This document shows, piece by piece, positions 5,101 to 25,609 of a DNA stretch of 33,005 nucleotides (its first letter is position 1; each line of letters starts with the position of its first letter). Made by a program: the position numbers and the translations under genes. Below the pieces are notes generated by a model. It searched no databases. It was not told the origin of the DNA and saw only the letters and a program-made list of their open reading frames with translations. The stretch spans positions 1 to 33,005 of the forward strand of contig CAIOAO010000073.1 of assembly GCA_903855985.1 (NCBI GenBank), read 5' to 3'. The stretch is from an uncultured Opitutia bacterium. Lineage in GTDB: Bacteria > Verrucomicrobiota > Verrucomicrobiia > Opitutales > Opitutaceae.

Positions 5101-6516
5101 TCAGGCGCCCTTGAGGTTGATCTGCTCAAAGCGCGGGGCCAGCAGGTGCATGATAATCCAGGCCGTGAGGTAGGCCGAGCCGCAGATGACAAACAGGATC
5201 CCGTAGCCGACCTCGATTTTGCCGAGGGCCGCGAAATGCTGGAGCAGGAGCCCGACGACCCGCGCGATCAGGATGCCGCCCACCGCCCCGGCCATGCCGC
5301 CGATGCCGGTCACGGATGCCACGGCTTTCTTGGGGAACATGTCCGAGACCGTGGTGAAGATATTGGCCGACCAGGCCTGGTGCGCGGAACAGGCGATCGC
5401 GATCGTCGCCACGGCCAGCCAGGTGTTGATCTGGCCCAGGCGAGATGCGAGCAGGACGGAGAGCGGAAAGAGGGCAAAGATGAACATCGCGAGCTTCCGG
5501 GCGCGGCTCGCGTTCATGCCCCCGTTGATGAATTTCTTCGGCAGCCAGCCGCCAAAGATGGAACCGCCCGTGGCGACGGTGTAGACCACGGCGACCGCGA
5601 GGGGCCAGCTGATCACCCCCGGGATGTCGGCCTTGCTGCCAGCGTAATCCGGATGAGCGGCGAGATACGTGCCGACCTTGCGGGCGTTTTCCCCGGTGAG
5701 AAACGCGGGCAGCCAGAACAGATAGAACCACCAGATCGGGTCGGTCAGGAACTTGCCGAGCACAAAGGCCCAGGTCTGGCGAAAAGCCATCAGGCGCGCC
5801 CACGGCACCTTCGTCCCCGCGGGATCGGCCTTCGCGTCCGCCTGCTCATCCGCATCGCTGTGGATGTACTCGTACTCCGCCGGCCGGAGGTGGCCGCTCG
5901 CCAGCTTGGCGGCGGGCGAGGCGTACATGGCGTACCAGAACGCGAGCCAGACGAGGCCCACGGCGCCGGTCAGGACAAAGGCCCATTCCCAACCCCAGGC
6001 GGCTGCGATCGAGGGCACGGCCAGCGGCGCCACGATCGCGCCCACGTTGGCGCCGGAGTTGTACAGGCCGGTGGCAAAGGCGCGTTCCTTCCGCGGGAAC
6101 CACTCGGCAATCGTCTTGTTGGCCGCGGGAAAATTGCCCGCCTCGCTGAACCCCAGCGCCGCGCGCCAGAAGCCGAACGTCACGGTCGTATGCCCGAAAG
6201 CGTGGCCGATGGCGGCCAGGCTCCAGCCGATGAGTGAAAAGGCATAGCCCTGCTTGGTGCCGACCCGGTCGATCAGCCGTCCCGCCGCCAGCATGCCGGC
6301 GGCGTAGGCGACCTGGAAGCAGATCACTACCGTCGAGTAATTCAGCTCCTGGTCCGCCTTGACCGCTCCAAACACCCCGCTGTCCGAGAGGACCTGCTTC
6401 AACAGACCAAGGACGTTCCGGTCGAGGTAGTTGATCGTGGTCGCGAAGAACACGAGCGCGCAGATCGTCCAGCGGTACCGGCCGATCTGTTCGTTGACTT
6501 GGTTAAATTTGTTCAT
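5101..6516 (-). CDS. exuT: MFS hexuronate transporter, ExuT-like (anion:cation symporter family)
   Basis: A 471-residue inner-membrane transporter with about twelve hydrophobic segments, a normal length for the ACS family of the major facilitator superfamily. The N-terminal signature [20 protein letters not shown], followed by [13 protein letters not shown] in the first cytoplasmic loop and [20 protein letters not shown] in TM4-5, is close to E. coli ExuT. It should import galacturonate and related hexuronates released by the GH28 and GH105 activities encoded upstream. It sits between the two large pectinase genes: its start lies three bases after the GH105-GH28 stop (6520), and its TGA is one base before the next ATG. 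It should therefore be expressed with them. The precise substrate (mono- or disaccharide, saturated or unsaturated) cannot be told from sequence. Confidence 0.85.
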
Positions 6517-6519
6517 GGA

Positions 6520-9072
6520 TCACGGGGTGGTCGGGGGTTGGACTGGCTGCGCTACGCGCCGGACGGGGTTGAAGGTCACCCGTACAAACCCGACCGTGCC
6601 GGCTTGCTCCACGACGTCGGGTTGGGTGAGTCCGCGGAAAGTCGAGTCGGTGAGGCGGAGGCCCTCGATCACCGCGCCGGCAAAACCGCGGATATACAAT
6701 ACCCGCGGGCTGGCCGCGCTGGTGATGTGGTCGAGCTGGACGTTGCGCACGACCGGCGGGTGCGCGCCCTTCGCGCCTTCCTCGTAAAGCAGATCAATCG
6801 CCAGCACGGCCTCGGTGACGCGGCCAATCTGGACGCGGCGCATGAAGACGTTTTCAAGCACCCCACCCCGCTGGGCGTTGGACTTGAAGCGCAGCGCGCA
6901 GTCGAGATTCGGGCTGTCCATCGTGCAATCCTCGATAAAGACGTTGCGCACCCCGCCGGAAATCTCGCTGCCGAGCACCACGCCGCCGTGGCCGTCCTTC
7001 ATCGTGCAGCGGCGGATGACGATATTCTCGCTGGGCACGTTGACGCGGCGGCCGTCGTTGTTGCGGCCGGACTTGATCGCGATGCAGTCGTCGCCCGTGT
7101 CGAACACGCAGTCCTCGATGAGCACGTCGCGGGACGACTCCGGGTCACAGCCGTCGTTGTTCGGCCCGTGTGATCTGATCTTCACGCCTCGTACGGTGAC
7201 ATTCTGCGACAGCACCGGATGAATCTCCCACATCGGCGAGCGGATAATCGTCACGCCCTCGACCAGGACATTCCGGCAGCGGTAGAACTGGATAAAGTTC
7301 GGCCGCAGGAACCCGCCGTCACCCAACACGCGCTCCGATACCGGCACGCCCCGCTCCCCCAGATCGAGGAGACGGTCGCGCGCCGCCTGCTGCCGGACGG
7401 GTGGATGGTCCCTGTCGTTCCAGCCCCACCAATTGGATTCGTCCGCCTGACCGTCGAGGGTGCCGGAGCCAGTCACGGCGACGTTCTCCTGTTCGAAGGC
7501 GTAGATCAGCGGGGAATAATTCATGCCCTCGACGCCCTCCCAGCGGGTAAACACCACGGGGTAATCCGCGGGCGCGGTGCTGAACCGGAGGGTCGCGCCG
7601 GCGCTGATGTGCAAATTGACGTTGCTGAGCAGGTGAATCGCTCCGGTGGTCCACTCGCCCGCCGGCACGACGACCCGGCCGCCGCCCGCGGCGTGGCAGG
7701 CCGCAATAGCGTCACCAATCGCCCCGGTAGCACCGACTCCGGGTTTCGCGCCGAAATCGGTGATAGGAAAATCGCCCGCCGGGAAAACCGGGACCTGGAT
7801 GCGGGCAAGGATGCGATCAACGTCGCCCCACCCGCGCACGACTTCCGGCGCCGGGGGCTGCGTGAGGAGTCGCTGCACCTCCAGCCCCGCGAGGATGAAG
7901 GGCGCGACACCCTTGAGGTCGTTTTCGACCACGGGTTCGCTGACGTAATAGTCGAAGCTGCCGTCACGCACCCGCCCACTGGCGGTGGTGTACCCGAGGC
8001 CGGCGACTTCGCAGACGCGGGTGAGATTGACCCCGCCGTCGCCGCCCGTGCGGATACAGTCCCGCACCAGTCCCGCATAACCGCGCAGGACGGCGGGCAG
8101 ATATTTCTCCCGCGACAGATAGCCGCGGTTGATCCCCTTCGCCAAGGCGTACACGAACATACCGGAGGCGGAGGACTCGAGGTAGTTGCCCTTCCTGCCG
8201 GGCTGGTCGAGTACCTGCCACCAGAGTCCGCTCGCGAGGTCCTGGTGAAGCAGGAGACCGTCGGCGAGCTTGCGCAGGACGGCGTTGATCGCCTCGACCT
8301 CGGGATGCGTGGGCGGGAACTCATCGAGGCAGTCCACCAGCGCCATCGCGTACCAACCTTCCGCGCGGCCCCAGAAATTCGGCGAATGACCCGTGGCCGG
8401 GTCGGCCCAGGCCTGGGCGCGTTTTTCGTCCCAGGCGTGGTAGAACAGCCCGCTGCGCTCGTCGTAAGTGTGCCGATCCACGAGCAGGATCTGCTTCGCC
8501 ACGTCATCCAGTGCAGCGGGCTCGGGCAGCAAATTTCCGGCCCGGGCCAGGAACGGCGATGCCATGTACAGACCGTCCAGCCACATCTGCCCCGGGTAAC
8601 GCTGCTTGTGCCAGAACCCCCCCTCGCTCGTGCGTGGCTGCATCGCCAGCTGGCGCAGCAGGTGGCCGAGGGCGATCTTCAGCCGCTCATCTTTCGTCTG
8701 CTCATACCGCAGCTGCAGCGCGCGGCCGGACGTGACCATGTCGAGATTGTATTCCTCGGGCTTGTACGTCGCGATGCTGCCGTCGGGCTGGAGGTAGGAT
8801 TCGACGAGGCTCGCCGCGTAGGTCGTGGTCGCAGCGTCGCTAGTTTGCGCCGCAAGTTTCAGCAACGAGTAGGAGAAAAGTCCGGTGGTGTAGTCCCAGC
8901 GAGCCTTTGGCGTGCCTTGGTAATTGAGCGTCGTCCCGCGCCGGGCCATCTCGGATTGCGCCAACCGCCGCGACCATTCCAGCGGCGTCGCGCCGTTGAA
9001 GGTGGCCGGGGGTTCCGCCGCCACCGCGGCCAAGCCGAGGCCGGCGAACAAGACCAGCAGCCGCGTTTTCAT
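6520..9072 (-). CDS. GH105 unsaturated uronyl hydrolase fused to GH28 polygalacturonase
   Basis: An 850-residue fusion. Residues 1-19 look like a signal peptide. Residues about 30-405 are GH105 (YteR/YesR type), with candidate acid residues Asp111 (DMVTSGRAL) and Asp166 (QMWLDGLYM), plus WGRAEGWYAMALVD. Residues about 435-840 are a right-handed beta-helix GH28 with the family sites NNDGCD (Asp640), DTGDDCIAIKSG (Asp661, Asp662), GHGGVVLGSE (His695) and RFK (Arg728, Lys730). GH105 removes the unsaturated uronic acid left by lyases, giving the KduI substrate; GH28 releases galacturonate. ATG at 9072 starts the signal peptide and overlaps the pectinesterase stop as ATGA. It is one of the two genes here with a clear Shine-Dalgarno (GGAGG, bases 9084-9080, seven bases before ATG). 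Confidence 0.9.
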   Translation of the reverse strand: MKTRLLVLFAGLGLAAVAAEPPATFNGATPLEWSRRLAQSEMARRGTTLNYQGTPKARWDYTTGLFSYSLLKLAAQTSDAATTTYAASLVESYLQPDGSIATYKPEEYNLDMVTSGRALQLRYEQTKDERLKIALGHLLRQLAMQPRTSEGGFWHKQRYPGQMWLDGLYMASPFLARAGNLLPEPAALDDVAKQILLVDRHTYDERSGLFYHAWDEKRAQAWADPATGHSPNFWGRAEGWYAMALVDCLDEFPPTHPEVEAINAVLRKLADGLLLHQDLASGLWWQVLDQPGRKGNYLESSASGMFVYALAKGINRGYLSREKYLPAVLRGYAGLVRDCIRTGGDGGVNLTRVCEVAGLGYTTASGRVRDGSFDYYVSEPVVENDLKGVAPFILAGLEVQRLLTQPPAPEVVRGWGDVDRILARIQVPVFPAGDFPITDFGAKPGVGATGAIGDAIAACHAAGGGRVVVPAGEWTTGAIHLLSNVNLHISAGATLRFSTAPADYPVVFTRWEGVEGMNYSPLIYAFEQENVAVTGSGTLDGQADESNWWGWNDRDHPPVRQQAARDRLLDLGERGVPVSERVLGDGGFLRPNFIQFYRCRNVLVEGVTIIRSPMWEIHPVLSQNVTVRGVKIRSHGPNNDGCDPESSRDVLIEDCVFDTGDDCIAIKSGRNNDGRRVNVPSENIVIRRCTMKDGHGGVVLGSEISGGVRNVFIEDCTMDSPNLDCALRFKSNAQRGGVLENVFMRRVQIGRVTEAVLAIDLLYEEGAKGAHPPVVRNVQLDHITSAASPRVLYIRGFAGAVIEGLRLTDSTFRGLTQPDVVEQAGTVGFVRVTFNPVRRVAQPVQPPTTP

Positions 9073-20426: not shown

Positions 20427-21389
20427 ATGACACCGCCGGGCTCCGACCACTTCAACGGGAAAACCTTTTTCAATCCCGGCGGGCCGGCGGAGCGCGGCCT
20501 GCTCGACGTGCTGCGCTGGCAGTTTTCCAGCCGGCCCGCGCGCTGGCCGCAATGGGTGGAGATTGCCCCGTCGCTCCCGCCCCCGGCACCGGCACCGGCC
20601 GGCGCCAGCGTCACCGCCACCTGGGTCAACCACTCGACCTTCCTGCTGCAAACCGCCGGACACACCCTGCTGACCGACCCGGTTTTCTCCGCGCGCGTCA
20701 GTCCCGTGGCCTGGGCCGGGCCGCGCCGGGTGCATGCGCCGGGGATCACGTTCGAGTCACTGCCGAAAATCGACACGGTGCTCCTGAGCCACGATCACTA
20801 CGACCATTGCGACCTGCCGTCGTTGCGCCGGCTCGCGCGCGAACACCAGCCGGTGTTTGTCGCCCCGCTCGGGCATCACGCGCTGCTCACTGGCGCGGGG
20901 GCGAAACGCATCGTCGAACTCGACTGGTGGCAGGCGCATGAACTGGCTCCGGATCTCACCGTGACCGTCACCCCTTCCCGCCACTGGAGCCGGCGCTCCG
21001 CCGGTGGCACCAACCGGCGGCTGTGGGGCGGATTTTATCTGCACACGGCGGCGCGCCGGGTGTGGTTTTTGGGCGACTCGGGTTATGACGAAGCGCTCTT
21101 CCGCGACATCGGCCGCCGCTGCGGCGCGCCTGATCTCGCGCTCATCCCGATCGGGGCCTACGAGCCCCGGTGGTTTATGTCGGCGGCGCACCTGAATCCC
21201 GCGGAGGCCGTGCTGGCCCATCGCGACAGCGGTGCGCGCCAGAGCGTGGCCATGCACTGGGGTACCTTTCAACTGACGGACGAGGGTCGCGAGCACCCGG
21301 TCCAGGCGCTGGAACAGGCCCGGGCCGAGGCCGGGGTGTCCGCGGAAAGCTTTCGTGTGCTGGCTCCGGGTGAAAGTCTCGGCGTTTAG
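20427..21389 (+). CDS. MBL-fold metallo-hydrolase, NAPE-PLD-like
   Basis: A 320-residue metallo-beta-lactamase-fold protein. The metal motif is LLSHDHYDHCD (HxHxDH) near residue 115, with further probable ligands in SRHWSRR, LGDSGYD and AMHWGTF. GPRRVHAPGI, FFNPGG at the N-terminus and AAHLNPAEAV near the C-terminus are typical of the N-acyl-phosphatidylethanolamine phospholipase D / UlaG-like group. There is no signal peptide, so it should be cytoplasmic. A phospholipid-related substrate would fit the lipid-transport operon downstream, but many members act on other phosphodiesters or lactones. The 132-base gap before it holds a weak promoter-like pair, TTGCGA (20358) and TTTAAT (20379), with a short spacer. 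Confidence 0.82.
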   Translation: MTPPGSDHFNGKTFFNPGGPAERGLLDVLRWQFSSRPARWPQWVEIAPSLPPPAPAPAGASVTATWVNHSTFLLQTAGHTLLTDPVFSARVSPVAWAGPRRVHAPGITFESLPKIDTVLLSHDHYDHCDLPSLRRLAREHQPVFVAPLGHHALLTGAGAKRIVELDWWQAHELAPDLTVTVTPSRHWSRRSAGGTNRRLWGGFYLHTAARRVWFLGDSGYDEALFRDIGRRCGAPDLALIPIGAYEPRWFMSAAHLNPAEAVLAHRDSGARQSVAMHWGTFQLTDEGREHPVQALEQARAEAGVSAESFRVLAPGESLGV

Positions 21390-21556: not shown

Positions 21557-23044
21557 ATGCCCATTGCCCGTCTGATTGCTGTTTTCTGCTGCCTGGCCGC
21601 GCTCTGCGCGCGTGCCGGTGCGGAAGAGCGCAATCTCTGGCCGGCCCACGTCGCCCAAGTGGACGTCGCGGGTCATGTCACCTCCTCGGAAAGCGTCGGT
21701 CCTCTCGTCTTCCAAAAACCCGGTCCGGACGGGGGAACGGTGTCGGGAGTGCGGCCTTTTTTTGTCCAAACCAAGGATGCGGCCGGGCGGACGACGGTGG
21801 CGTCGGTGCTTTACCCGGTCTACATCTACCGGGCGGACTCCGACACCTACAAGTGGACCGTGCTCAACCTGATCACCGGGGCGGGCCCCCAACAGGCGAA
21901 CGCGACGTCCTCCACGGACCAGACCAAGGCCTTTGACCTCTGGATTTTTTGGTTTTCCCGGCAGACCGGCTCGCCGGAGACCTCCTATCGCGCGCTGTTT
22001 CCCATCGCGGGAAACATCAAGCACCGCTTCGGCAAGGACGAACTCTCCTGGGTGATCTGGCCGCTGTATTTCCGGTCGGAAAAGAACGGCTCGGTCACCA
22101 CCTCCACCCCCTGGCCGTTCATCCAGTCCACCCGCGGCACGGAGACCGGCTTCGCGCTCTGGCCGCTGTTCGGCTGGCGCGACCGGCCCGAGCGTTTCCA
22201 CAAATCCTATTATCTCTGGCCGCTCGCCTGGAACAACACGATCCAGCCCCCGGAGGACGCCCCCGCCGGCACGCCGCCCACCCGGCAGCATGGCTTCATC
22301 CCTTTCTACACCCACGAGCGGCGCGACGGTTTCGTGGACGAAAACTACGTCTGGCCGTTCTTCGGCTACACCGACCGCACACTGCCCTATCGCTATCACG
22401 AGCAGCGCTACCTGTGGCCGTTTTTCGTGCAGGGCGAGGGCGACAACCGCCTGGTCAACCGCTGGGGCCCGTTCTACACGCACTCGGTGATCAAGGGCAT
22501 GGACAAGACCTGGTACCTGTGGCCCCTGGTGCGCCGGGCGAAGTGGGATGATTCCGGCGTGGCGCAGACCCGGACCCAGTTCCTCTACCTGCTCTACTGG
22601 TCCCTCGAGCAGCGGAGCCTGACCAATCCCGCGGCGGCCCCCGCCGACCGCACCCATGTCTGGCCGTTCTTCAGCAAGTGGGACAACGGCGCGGGTCGCC
22701 GGCAGTTCCAGCTGTTCAGCCCCCTCGACGTGTTTTTTCCCGACAACAACAACGTCCGCGAGACGTGGACTCCCCTGTTCGCGCTCTACCGCTCCGACCA
22801 GCGCGCGCCGGACGACAAGCGCTGGTCGCTCCTCTGGCGGGCCGTGACCTGGCGCCAGGAGTACGGCGAGAAGGAGTTTCACCTCGGCCCGCTGTTCAGC
22901 ACGTCATCGCGCGCCGGCTCGAATCGCGTCGCCTTCGGCAACGGTCTCTTCGGCTGGAAACGCAATCCCGGCGAGCCGGGCTCCCACTGGTTCTGGTTCG
23001 ATTTCCCGCCCAAAGTGAACAAACTTCCCCCGCCCTCCCTCTGA
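21557..23044 (+). CDS. Exported protein with repeated W-P-[LF] motifs, first gene of the mla operon
   Basis: A 495-residue protein that I cannot assign to a named family. Residues 1-22 form a signal peptide ending CARAGA. The mature part carries eight strict W-P-[LF] motifs, with the Trp at residues 148, 166, 182, 201, 246, 267, 302 and 349, and looser copies (GPF 284, TPLF 395, GPLF 434). They alternate with aromatic and charged stretches such as YTHERRDGF and WRDRPERF. The pattern of short alternating segments suggests a beta-rich repeat, perhaps an envelope barrel or propeller. Its stop is one base before the mlaE ATG, so it is translationally coupled to a lipid-transport system and may be its periplasmic or outer-membrane partner (no MlaA or MlaC is present). 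The upstream 167 bases hold a TATAAA-like box at 21463-21468 but no convincing -35. Confidence 0.8.
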   Translation: MPIARLIAVFCCLAALCARAGAEERNLWPAHVAQVDVAGHVTSSESVGPLVFQKPGPDGGTVSGVRPFFVQTKDAAGRTTVASVLYPVYIYRADSDTYKWTVLNLITGAGPQQANATSSTDQTKAFDLWIFWFSRQTGSPETSYRALFPIAGNIKHRFGKDELSWVIWPLYFRSEKNGSVTTSTPWPFIQSTRGTETGFALWPLFGWRDRPERFHKSYYLWPLAWNNTIQPPEDAPAGTPPTRQHGFIPFYTHERRDGFVDENYVWPFFGYTDRTLPYRYHEQRYLWPFFVQGEGDNRLVNRWGPFYTHSVIKGMDKTWYLWPLVRRAKWDDSGVAQTRTQFLYLLYWSLEQRSLTNPAAAPADRTHVWPFFSKWDNGAGRRQFQLFSPLDVFFPDNNNVRETWTPLFALYRSDQRAPDDKRWSLLWRAVTWRQEYGEKEFHLGPLFSTSSRAGSNRVAFGNGLFGWKRNPGEPGSHWFWFDFPPKVNKLPPPSL

Positions 23045-23045
23045 C

Positions 23046-23798
23046 ATGAAACAAATCACCGCCATCCTCGAGGGTTTTGGCAGCACCCTGCAGCTCCTGA
23101 TCCGCTCCATCGGCTATGCGGGCACGCTGCCGCGCCAATGGGGGCGCTTCATCGAGCAGTGCTACATGATCGGCTACACCACGCTGCCGATCGTCGCCAT
23201 CCTGAGCTTCTTCATCGGCAGCGTGCTGGCACTGCAGGCGGGCTATTCGATGCAGAATTTCGGCACCCAGCAGTTCATCGGCTCCCTCGTCGGCCTCTCG
23301 ATGGCCCGCGAGCTCGGCCCGGTGATGGTGGCCATCCTCGTCGCCGGCCGCGTCGGCTCCGCCATCGCCGCCGAGCTGGCCTCGATGAAAGTCTACCAGG
23401 AGGTCGACGCCCTCGTGACGATGAACATCCCCCCCGCCCGGATGCTCGTGATGCCCCGGCTCGCCGCCTCGCTCGTGATGGTGCCGGTGCTCGCGCTCAT
23501 CGGCGACCTGGTCGGCTGGTTCGGCGGCGCGATCGTCTCGAAATACACCGCGATCATCAGCATCGAGCCGGAGGCCTACTTTGCCGTGCTGCGGCACTAC
23601 ACGCATTTCAAGGATGTGCTCAACGGCCTGGTCAAGGCCGAGATCTTCGGCTTCGTGGTCGTGCTCGTCTGCTGCAACATCGGCCTCAACACCCGCGGCG
23701 GCCCGCGCGAGATCGGCGCCTCCGTCACCCGCGCCGTCGTCGTCTCCCTGATCCTCATCCTCGTGCTCGATTACTTCGTCACGCAAATCCTCACCTAA
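23046..23798 (+). CDS. mlaE: MlaE-family ABC transporter permease
   Basis: A 250-residue inner-membrane permease of the MCE/Mla phospholipid-trafficking system. The MlaE core is evident: GLSMARELGPVMVAILVAGR, GSAIAAELASMKVYQEVDAL, NIPPARMLVMPRLAA, and the C-terminal GLNTRGGPREIGASVTRAVV. About five transmembrane segments follow an N-terminal amphipathic stretch. It begins one base after the previous stop and ends one base before mlaF (TAA C ATG). The leader is CCCTCCCTCTGAC, with no Shine-Dalgarno, so it probably depends on coupling. Confidence 0.93.
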   Translation: MKQITAILEGFGSTLQLLIRSIGYAGTLPRQWGRFIEQCYMIGYTTLPIVAILSFFIGSVLALQAGYSMQNFGTQQFIGSLVGLSMARELGPVMVAILVAGRVGSAIAAELASMKVYQEVDALVTMNIPPARMLVMPRLAASLVMVPVLALIGDLVGWFGGAIVSKYTAIISIEPEAYFAVLRHYTHFKDVLNGLVKAEIFGFVVVLVCCNIGLNTRGGPREIGASVTRAVVVSLILILVLDYFVTQILT

Positions 23799-23799
23799 C

Positions 23800-24606
23800 A
23801 TGGCCGGCACCTCCCACACCCGCAATCCGTTCACGCAGGTCGAGACCCCGGCGGTCGGCGTCACCGTCGAGCACCTTTCGAAAAACTTCGGCAGCCTCAA
23901 GGTGCTCAAGGACGTCTCCTTTGCGGTGCAGCCCGGCGAGATCTTCGTGCTGATGGGCCCCAGCGGCTCGGGCAAGAGCGTCCTGCTCAAGCATATCGTC
24001 GGCCTCGAGCTGCCGACCGCGGGCCGCGTGGCCGTGGACGGCCATGACGCCGCCTCGGAGGAGACGCGCGAGCGCGTGCGCATGGCCCTGGTCTTCCAGT
24101 CGGGCGCGCTGTTCAACTCGCTCAGCGTCTACGACAACCTCGCGCTCTACCCGCGCGAGCACCGCCTCGCCGACGAGGCCGGCATCCGCCAGAAGGTGAT
24201 GCACGCGCTGAAGATCCTCTCGCTCGAGGGCACCGCGAAGAAATTTCCCGCCGACCTGTCCGGCGGCATGAAGAAGCGCGTCGCCATCGCCCGCGCCCTC
24301 GTGATGGAGCCCCAGCTCATGCTCTACGACGAGCCCACCAGCGAGCTCGACCCGGTGATGTCGGCCACCATCAGCGAGATCATCGCCTCCCTGCGCGTGG
24401 AGTACCGCGTCACCACCATCGTCGTGTCCCACGACCGCGATCTCGCCCTCAACATCGCGGACCGCGTCGGCATCCTGATGGACGGCAAGCTCATCTTCCT
24501 CGGCCCGCCCTCGGAGCTGAAACAGCCCAAGGACCCCATCGTGGCCGACTTCCTCACGCCCAAGATCGACCTGCAGCATCCCCGTTTTAAGCAATTGGAG
24601 ACCTGA
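23800..24606 (+). CDS. mlaF: MlaF-family ABC transporter ATP-binding protein
   Basis: A 268-residue ATPase that powers MlaE. Motifs are complete: Walker A GPSGSGKS at 53-60, Q-loop Gln100 (VFQSGALF), signature LSGGM at 153-157, Walker B LMLYDE at 173-178, and switch His211. An N-terminal extension of about 20 residues precedes the first strand. MlaF proteins usually read PTAGLDP after Walker B; here it is PTSELDPV. No MlaB (STAS) gene is adjacent. It lies between mlaE (one base) and mlaD (four bases). Confidence 0.94.
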   Translation: MAGTSHTRNPFTQVETPAVGVTVEHLSKNFGSLKVLKDVSFAVQPGEIFVLMGPSGSGKSVLLKHIVGLELPTAGRVAVDGHDAASEETRERVRMALVFQSGALFNSLSVYDNLALYPREHRLADEAGIRQKVMHALKILSLEGTAKKFPADLSGGMKKRVAIARALVMEPQLMLYDEPTSELDPVMSATISEIIASLRVEYRVTTIVVSHDRDLALNIADRVGILMDGKLIFLGPPSELKQPKDPIVADFLTPKIDLQHPRFKQLET

Positions 24607-24610
24607 TACC

Positions 24611-25609
24611 ATGAACAACTCGCAACAGACCGCCCGCGTCGGGCTTTTCTTCGTCCTCGGACTCGCCCTGACCTGGGTGACGTTCGCCACCCTCAGCGGC
24701 GGGAGCATTTTCAAAAACCAGGGCTACAAGCTCATCGCCGGCTTCGAGAGTCTCAAGGAGCTCAAGAAGGGCGACGAGGTCCGCATGGCCGGCGTGACCA
24801 TCGGCTCCGTCTTGGAAACCCACCTCGACCTCACCCACCGCCGCGGCGTGGCGACCCTGCAGATCGAGCCCGACATCCAGATCCCCGGGGACTCCACCGC
24901 CAGCATCGTCATGGCCGGCCTCATCGGCACGAATTACATTGGCGTCGAGCTCGGCTCCGCGGGCGCTGCGCCGCTCACCCCCGGCTCCGAGATCCGCACC
25001 AAGGTCACACCCGACATCAACACGATCATGACTGAGATCGGCAACCTCGGCCAGAAGCTCGACGGCGCCTTCAGCTCCTTCAGCACCGCGATCAGCGGCG
25101 ACGGCAAGTCACCGGGGCTGTTCCAGAAACTCGACAAGGTCATCACGGATAACGGCGAGAAGGTCACCGCCACCATGACCAACCTCCAGGAGATCACGAC
25201 CAAGCTGAACAGCGGCGAGGGCACCCTCGGCAAACTCATCAACGATCCCGCCCTGCACGAAGAGCTCGTCGCCGCCGTGAGCGAGATCAAGTCCACCGCC
25301 GCCGAGGCCAAGACCTTCGTCACCGACGCGCAGGCCGTCATGACCCAGGTGAAGTCCGGCAAGGGCACCCTCGGGGTGCTGGTGTATGACGAGGCCTCCG
25401 CCAACAACCTCAAGGCCTCCGTCGCCAATATCCGCGCCGTCTCCGACAAGCTCGCCAAGGGCGAGGGCACGCTCGGCAAGCTCATCAACGACGACACGCT
25501 CTACAACACCGCGCAAAGCACGCTCAAGAAGGCCGACCGTGCCATCGACGGCCTCGGCGACTCCGGCCCGATCACCGCCGTCGGCATCGTCGCGAACTCG
25601 CTGTTCTGA
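24611..25609 (+). CDS. mlaD: MlaD-family MCE-domain protein with a repeat-bearing C-terminal tail
   Basis: A 332-residue substrate-binding subunit. Residues about 10-29 form one membrane anchor; residues about 38-118 are the MCE domain (GYKLIAGFESLKELKKGDEV, VRMAGVTIGSV, MAGLIGTNYIGVELG). MlaD of E. coli is about 183 residues, so the 200-residue tail is extra. The tail is helical, rich in Lys, Asp and Thr, and carries three clear copies of a G-[EK]-G-T-L-G-x-L-[IV]-x-D motif at about 201, 249 and 283, plus a weaker one at 162. Such tails form tunnels or coiled assemblies across the periplasm in other MCE proteins. It is one of two genes in the window with a clear Shine-Dalgarno (GGAG at 24597-24600), though with a long ten-base spacer. 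Confidence 0.9.
   Translation: MNNSQQTARVGLFFVLGLALTWVTFATLSGGSIFKNQGYKLIAGFESLKELKKGDEVRMAGVTIGSVLETHLDLTHRRGVATLQIEPDIQIPGDSTASIVMAGLIGTNYIGVELGSAGAAPLTPGSEIRTKVTPDINTIMTEIGNLGQKLDGAFSSFSTAISGDGKSPGLFQKLDKVITDNGEKVTATMTNLQEITTKLNSGEGTLGKLINDPALHEELVAAVSEIKSTAAEAKTFVTDAQAVMTQVKSGKGTLGVLVYDEASANNLKASVANIRAVSDKLAKGEGTLGKLINDDTLYNTAQSTLKKADRAIDGLGDSGPITAVGIVANSLF

Follow-up and report, generated by a model that had tools for sequence, protein, structure and literature searches.

The window analysed here is a whole stretch of 33,005 nucleotides from an uncultured Opitutia bacterium (contig CAIOAO010000073.1, forward strand). It contains an operon in which a gene for a protein of 495 amino acids (aa) with repeated W-P-[LF] motifs is followed, in this order, by mlaE, mlaF and mlaD, the genes of a lipid transporter of the Mla kind. 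The W-P-[LF] gene ends in a stop codon, after which a single base (23045) precedes the open reading frame (ORF) of mlaE. The three downstream genes stand in a row and match PF02405, PF00005 and PF02470 above the cut-off, i.e. as an MlaEFD operon. The features are the following.

21557..23044, + strand: W-P-[LF] protein, 495 aa, unnamed family, first gene of the operon (ORF, homologues, AlphaFold model)
21557..21622, + strand: presumed signal peptide, residues 1-22, with A-G-A before E-E (by eye, in the window protein and homologues)
22058..22066, + strand: W-P-L motif 1, residues 168-170
22112..22120, + strand: W-P-F motif 2, residues 186-188
22160..22168, + strand: W-P-L motif 3, residues 202-204
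22217..22225, + strand: W-P-L motif 4, residues 221-223
22352..22360, + strand: W-P-F motif 5, residues 266-268
22415..22423, + strand: W-P-F motif 6, residues 287-289
22520..22528, + strand: W-P-L motif 7, residues 322-324
22661..22669, + strand: W-P-F motif 8, residues 369-371
21971..22591, + strand: core of the protein, residues 139-345, a predicted meander of short strands whose hydrophobic and polar turns alternate with one exception (core modelled alone)
23046..23798, + strand: mlaE, permease (PF02405, 5.5e-74; TIGR00056; trees)
23800..24606, + strand: mlaF, ATPase (PF00005, ABC_tran, 8.1e-35)
24611..25609, + strand: mlaD, long form of 332 aa, with an N-terminal hydrophobic helix, an MCE domain (PF02470, 1.9e-13, at residues 38-113), a long region read as helical and a conserved tail (by sequence)
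25559..25606, + strand: C-terminal tail of MlaD, residues 317-332, present in all MlaD examined from W-P-[LF] operons and in none of the MlaA type (motif counts)

The original prediction had described an exported protein with eight strict W-P-[LF] motifs, one base ahead of mlaE, in an operon lacking MlaA, MlaB and MlaC. This description holds. The 495-aa protein has exactly eight strict motifs, at the residues listed above, whereas 5,000 composition-preserving shuffles average 0.33 and never exceed 4; the 80 named homologues presented below have 6 to 10 each. Read by eye, its N-terminus is hydrophobic and has a site of the A-x-A type, and the protein is probably exported, judging from these letters. 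No MlaB gene lies within the operon, and MlaA (PF04333) and MlaC (PF05494) have no match even in the whole of its own genome.

The protein gives no family match in Pfam (E<=1), NCBIfam or PHROGs, no match among PDB sequences and none in plasmid records. At E<=0.01, Pfam likewise returns zero matches for the 30 members of a wide W-P-[LF] alignment that includes the window protein. In this alignment (30 members, 19 of them distant) prolines fill 12 of the 19 invariant columns. A clear lipobox is seen by eye in 8 of the 19 distant members (5 of the 16 linked to mlaE among them), and none is clear in the window protein. In some distant lineages the protein thus looks like a lipoprotein, which fits a placement at a membrane. 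Our searches of the open-licence PubMed Central (PMC) literature listed no paper describing the family, and within these searches it appears to be new as a partner family in a known kind of system. A relationship to MlaA was considered and rejected, PF04333 being absent from the protein at E<=1 in Pfam.

To describe the neighbourhood of the gene we used a scan of named genomes, whose patterns came from relatives in its own order, and wider genome searches within the phylum. The scan gave 156 loci, of which the best 80 were kept, and all 80 were used for gene order; their titles read Opitut-, Verrucomicrobi- or genera of Opitutaceae. Two sets were drawn from them: A2 (78 of the 80 loci plus the window) and A4 (70 of those 78 plus the window). 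In all 80 loci mlaE lies directly downstream on the same strand, followed by mlaF in 77 and mlaD in 75, the contig ending where either is absent. The start of mlaE is at +1 base from the W-P-[LF] stop in 43 of 78 loci and overlaps it by 4 bases in 25 of 78 (two loci, in which the mlaE alignment does not start at residue 1, were omitted). General synteny does not explain this coupling, since the gene on the upstream side is kept in just 33 of the 65 named loci with room for it.

The coupling extends beyond the named genomes. Among 38 close genomes, its own included, 23 have a homologue and 21 of these have mlaE directly downstream; the other two (G036 and G032) show no mlaE in the surrounding 14 and 11 kb. 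In 20 distant loci from 19 genomes, hand-picked among the better profile matches, the order W-P-[LF]-mlaE-mlaF-mlaD is found in 16, at 19-25% identity. Of 87 loci with a match (several genomes being repeated), mlaE comes next in 80, and the remaining 7 come from genomes G226, G138 and G167. Thus the homologues are not usually found away from mla genes, which the original prediction had named as an outcome that would speak against it.

The co-occurrence that it proposed to check was also found across the phylum. Of 288 genomes of the phylum, 127 match the profile of the W-P-[LF] gene; the wider profile A3 gives 138, with some partial matches in long frames among them. Four weak matches (G038, G202, G206 and G219) count within the 127, the one in G206 being a long unlinked protein; excluding them leaves 123 carriers, 12 of them with MlaA. 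All 127 carriers have MlaE, vs 140 of the 161 non-carriers. MlaA shows the opposite tendency: it is present in 113 of the 288 genomes, i.e. in 14 of the 127 carriers and 99 of the 161 non-carriers (odds ratio 0.078, Fisher 2e-19, kinship uncorrected). Thus 14 genomes have both genes, 113 the W-P-[LF] gene alone and 99 MlaA alone. The same holds in the 25 genomes of its own family (MlaA in 1/20 carriers vs 5/5 non-carriers) and in the rest of its order (0/7 carriers vs 8/11 non-carriers). The complementarity with MlaC is weaker: of the 30 genomes with MlaC, 7 are carriers (odds ratio 0.35, p 0.019, again kinship uncorrected).

We inspected the MlaA site in 7 of the 14 genomes with both genes. 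In G132, G208 and G240 MlaA belongs to a separate mlaE operon, on another contig and with an MlaE of the other lineage; in G094, G199, G301 and G302 no mlaE lies within 6-7 kb around MlaA. By coordinates, MlaA and the W-P-[LF] gene are on different contigs in G072, G078, G084, G121 and G252, and the last two genomes, G038 and G219, are weak matches. As an observation on MlaA itself, in families f28 and f33 (e.g. G063:C18, G060:C1) its domain mostly lies in frames of ~640-880 residues, far above the length of MlaA alone.

The MlaE proteins of the two kinds of operon are also distinct. Trees were built from rows chosen by hand, 83 in a careful tree and 70 in a quick one. In the careful tree the 69 W-P-[LF]-linked and the 13 MlaA-linked MlaE are split by one branch (support 100/99). 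Another 20 MlaE, whose operons have neither the W-P-[LF] gene nor (by coordinates) an adjoining MlaA, are included in the quick tree. Besides the W-P-[LF]-linked MlaE, this tree has a clade of MlaA-linked sequences (97), a Pqi-like group in which the second locus of the window's genome falls, and a fourth group, made up of G040 and members of other families of the class.

The type of MlaD follows the same division. Its length is 318-354 aa in 73 named W-P-[LF] operons and 147-175 aa in 9 of 13 MlaA operons; in the remaining 4 the rule for placing the start failed (71, 71, 95 and 251). All 73 named and all 16 distant MlaD of W-P-[LF] operons (89/89) carry the tail motif, vs 0 of 13 of the MlaA type, and in the former the final residue is F in all but one. 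Majority identity is 0.85 over the last 16 residues, 0.68 over residues 126-300 and 0.81 in the N-terminal helix. The genomes offer different MlaD ends, of the MlaA type, of the W-P-[LF] type, of the PqiC-like locus and of a fourth kind, which suggests that the end of the MCE protein and the operon partner change together in the phylum. Taken with the complementary distribution and the separate MlaE lineages, this difference in MlaD type supports the statement that the W-P-[LF] family stands in for MlaA in the genomic sense.

Two sets of operons in the phylum merit mention in their own right. The operons of the fourth group (L226, L228-L232, L237, L238, L241 and L245) have no W-P-[LF] gene and no adjoining MlaA; 7 of the 8 MlaD found there share the end G-[IV]-L-[FR]-Y, the one in L241 having GILH, and perhaps this group has a further partner. 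The MlaA operons L158-L162, L164, L166, L168 and L177 have a short MlaD (147-175 aa, with an E. coli-like end), and MlaC adjoins MlaA by coordinates. In PMC10665443 short MlaD is stated to be restricted to Proteobacteria, from which these operons of Verrucomicrobiota differ.

Structure prediction of the protein alone, proposed as a check at the outset, gave an all-beta model. For the 495-aa protein (79 sequences) AlphaFold predicts ~45 strands of 4-8 residues, with a mean predicted local distance difference test score (pLDDT) of 89.2 and a predicted template modelling score (pTM) of 0.74. The core modelled alone (207 residues) reaches a pLDDT of 93.9 and a pTM of 0.76. Residues 144-354 contain 21 loops, in which hydrophobic ones (the 11 odd loops: FPI, IWPL, TPWPF, WPL, LWPL, IPF, VWPF, LWPF, GPF, LWPL, LYLL) alternate with polar ones (9 of the 10 even loops: NG, TE, PER, QPPEDAPAGTPP, DG, TLPYR, DN, KG, SG). 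In a meander, such alternation would gather the W-P-[LF] turns along a single edge, which would accordingly look hydrophobic. The two faces of the sheet, assigned from the strand ends, are equally polar (Kyte-Doolittle -0.90 and -0.99). We read the protein as a long beta-ribbon, probably a single-layer sheet.

Those best structural matches of the core whose titles are informative are to sheets of this kind. They are led by TCP10 (Z 11.5, root-mean-square deviation (rmsd) 15.6, 175 residues aligned) and MORN1 (Z 10.3, rmsd 10.6, 165 aligned), with OspA (Z 8.8, rmsd 7.1, 148 aligned) and junctophilin-2 (Z 8.6, rmsd 9.3, 162 aligned) below. The first 39 ranks comprise TCP10/SAS-4, MORN1, junctophilin, OspA, seven ciliary or axonemal chains whose titles name no protein, and one designed protein. 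The sheets of CPAP TCP10/G-box, MORN-repeat and OspA proteins are single-layer open beta-sheets (for OspA the entry titles say so too). No sequence similarity accompanies these matches, and Pfam finds no MORN motif in the 495-aa protein at E<=1. A Z up to 11.5 at an rmsd of 7-16 indicates at most a common architecture and does not imply homology; according to the program, repeats reach such values. Foldseek with the core gave zero rows at E<=0.001, the best being TCP10 (E 0.01, template modelling score (TM) 0.31). In a viral structure library the whole model matched MORN-repeat proteins first and fifth (TM 0.17 and 0.22). A beta-propeller and an outer-membrane barrel were considered; for the core, barrels rank below open sheets (first OmpU, rank 40, Z 6.8), and for the whole model the barrel match is weak (Z 5.8), an outcome that still leaves room for either shape. 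The whole-model Foldseek matches in PDB (teneurin, ciliary, propeller and others) were taken as noise. An unrelated enzyme fold had been named as a result that would contradict the original prediction; the predicted fold looks unlike known enzymes.

Compared with the canonical Mla system of E. coli (MlaFEDB-MlaC-MlaA), the operon likewise combines MlaE, an ABC ATPase and an MCE-domain MlaD. It differs by the absence of MlaA and MlaC matches in the genome, by the additional, predicted beta protein of an unnamed family, by an MlaD of roughly double the length whose C-terminus differs, and by an MlaE that lies apart from the MlaA-linked lineage of the phylum. Another parallel is the three-component Mla of Veillonella parvula, which, according to PMC10665443, has MlaEFD without MlaA or MlaC and an elongated MlaD that spans the envelope through its own barrel. 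That C-terminal barrel has ten strands, whereas MlaD in the window ends, by its sequence, in a 16-residue hydrophobic tail, and a separate gene supplies the (predicted) beta protein. According to the same paper, most diderms may use a long MlaD without MlaA and MlaC, the MlaD barrel is wholly absent in the Planctomycetes-Verrucomicrobia-Chlamydiae (PVC) group, and as yet unidentified proteins are speculated on for barrel folding. The absence of the barrel raises the question of how MlaD reaches the outer membrane in this group. Across much of Verrucomicrobiota the W-P-[LF] family is a concrete candidate for such a partner, so that a single gene suffices to put the question to the test.

The Pqi/Mpc system with its PqiC lipoprotein also joins an MCE protein to a partner on the outer-membrane side, as proposed here; PMC12436622 describes PqiC as a ring in the outer membrane to which the end of PqiB may be anchored. 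The W-P-[LF] protein differs from PqiC in that it has no PF03886 match, and no likeness to PqiC appears among the structure-search matches. Its own genome has a second MCE locus that is Pqi/Mpc-like (L178, G000:C14:30000-43000, 5109-8737), with an MlaE bearing ~125 extra N-terminal residues, an ABC ATPase, an MCE protein and a PF03886 lipoprotein; the extension of this MlaE has no STAS match (Pfam, 0.01).

We consider it somewhat probable that a distinct lineage of Mla systems has the 495-aa protein as its dedicated fourth component, on the periplasmic or outer-membrane side, in the place of MlaC and MlaA. The two usual outer-side parts are missing where it occurs, which makes it a candidate for their replacement, and by analogy with the barrel of Veillonella MlaD and with PqiC anchoring it is proposed as the corresponding piece. 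Six long MlaD would form a channel, made of an MCE ring at the inner membrane and of a helical tube that crosses the periplasm. The hydrophobic tails of these MlaD, which are conserved and read PITAVG...LF in the window, would dock on the W-P-[LF] protein, a ribbon with two polar faces and one edge made of the row of W-P-[LF] and similar turns. The protein would then receive the tails of the MlaD hexamer and touch the outer membrane by its hydrophobic edge. Its location and its contact with MlaD are inferred, as are the hexameric state of MlaD, the insertion into a membrane, the handling of lipid and the direction of transport. At the level of genomes and predicted structure the original interpretation is therefore supported; for the replacement of MlaA and MlaC that it proposed, the MlaA complementarity, the MlaE lineages and the MlaD type speak in its favour, and the complementarity with MlaC is weaker.

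Several observations weigh against this proposal. It is built on genomes and a predicted monomer structure. Neither the W-P-[LF] gene nor MlaA is found in 62 of the 288 genomes, and all the 2x2 tests ignore kinship. The program issued a long-branch warning on the careful tree of 83 MlaE, and in the quick tree the W-P-[LF]-linked MlaE fall into two clades (99 and 100) without a sister relationship, at weak support (80). Long MlaD without a W-P-[LF] gene exists in other lineages of the phylum, so that the gene partners some lineages and not long MlaD generally. The homologues of five genomes (G226, G138, G167, G036 and G032) show no mlaE within the stretch that was read, and long proteins unaccompanied by mlaE (L218-L221) contain weaker repeats of the W-P-[LF] kind. 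As to the model, one of the ten even turns is hydrophobic (FG at 158-159), the whole-model fold matches are weak (query TM 0.08-0.16, Foldseek vs PDB), and a classical outer-membrane barrel would call for strands longer than 4-8 residues.

The genomic evidence, from the coupling to mlaE and the distant loci to the MlaE tree, applies equally to a scaffold or tether, a ribbon that would brace the MlaD tube, or anchor it, in the space between the membranes without ever touching lipid. This is unlikely in our estimate. In its favour, the faces are polar, protein-binding sheets are among the best matches of the core (e.g. TCP10 with a STIL peptide), and the possible anchoring of PqiB by PqiC, mentioned above, offers a precedent. 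The row of W-P-[LF] turns, however, is not obviously needed for bracing, and yet it is kept, as the proline-rich invariant columns attest. At the other extreme the ~45-strand ribbon, which would measure ~20 nm as one straight sheet, might be an intermembrane device of a new kind for lipid transfer, its W-P-[LF] edge serving as a hydrophobic rail that leads from MlaD to the outer membrane and replaces MlaC plus MlaA; we hold this to be rather doubtful.

The protein might also be a general envelope protein from a wider superfamily of W-P-[LF] repeats, linked to mla by co-transcription only. Such a reading, which we find quite improbable, would accommodate the unlinked copies in the five genomes as well as the W-P-[LF]-like repeats of unlinked proteins, two of which (L218 and L219) carry a lipobox. 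It does not sit well with a coupling held at 19-25% identity across the phylum, nor with the separate MlaE lineages and the presence of MlaE in every carrier. Still more improbable is an assembly or quality-control factor of MlaEFD, sub-stoichiometric and outside the working transporter. The gene does come first in the operon, and mlaE starts at +1 or -4 from its stop in 68 of the 78 loci measured, but its distribution is complementary to that of MlaA, a working part, and other Mla lineages of the phylum have no W-P-[LF] gene.

Some minor observations concern relatives and neighbours of the gene. The frames with W-P-[LF]-like repeats in L218 (3358-5832), L219 (2810-5446), L220 and L221 measure 825-1,425 aa, and perhaps these repeats form a wider repeat superfamily. 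In L022 (1492-3549, genome G021) a W-P-[LF] frame minus about its last 50 residues reads into mlaE without a stop, which is either a fusion or an assembly fault. Directly upstream of the operon, the window encodes at 20427-21389 (+ strand) a metallo-beta-lactamase-fold protein like N-acyl-phosphatidylethanolamine phospholipase D (PDB 4qn9, E 6.8e-62). A relative recurs in the 33 of 65 named loci mentioned above, and a link to lipids is possible.

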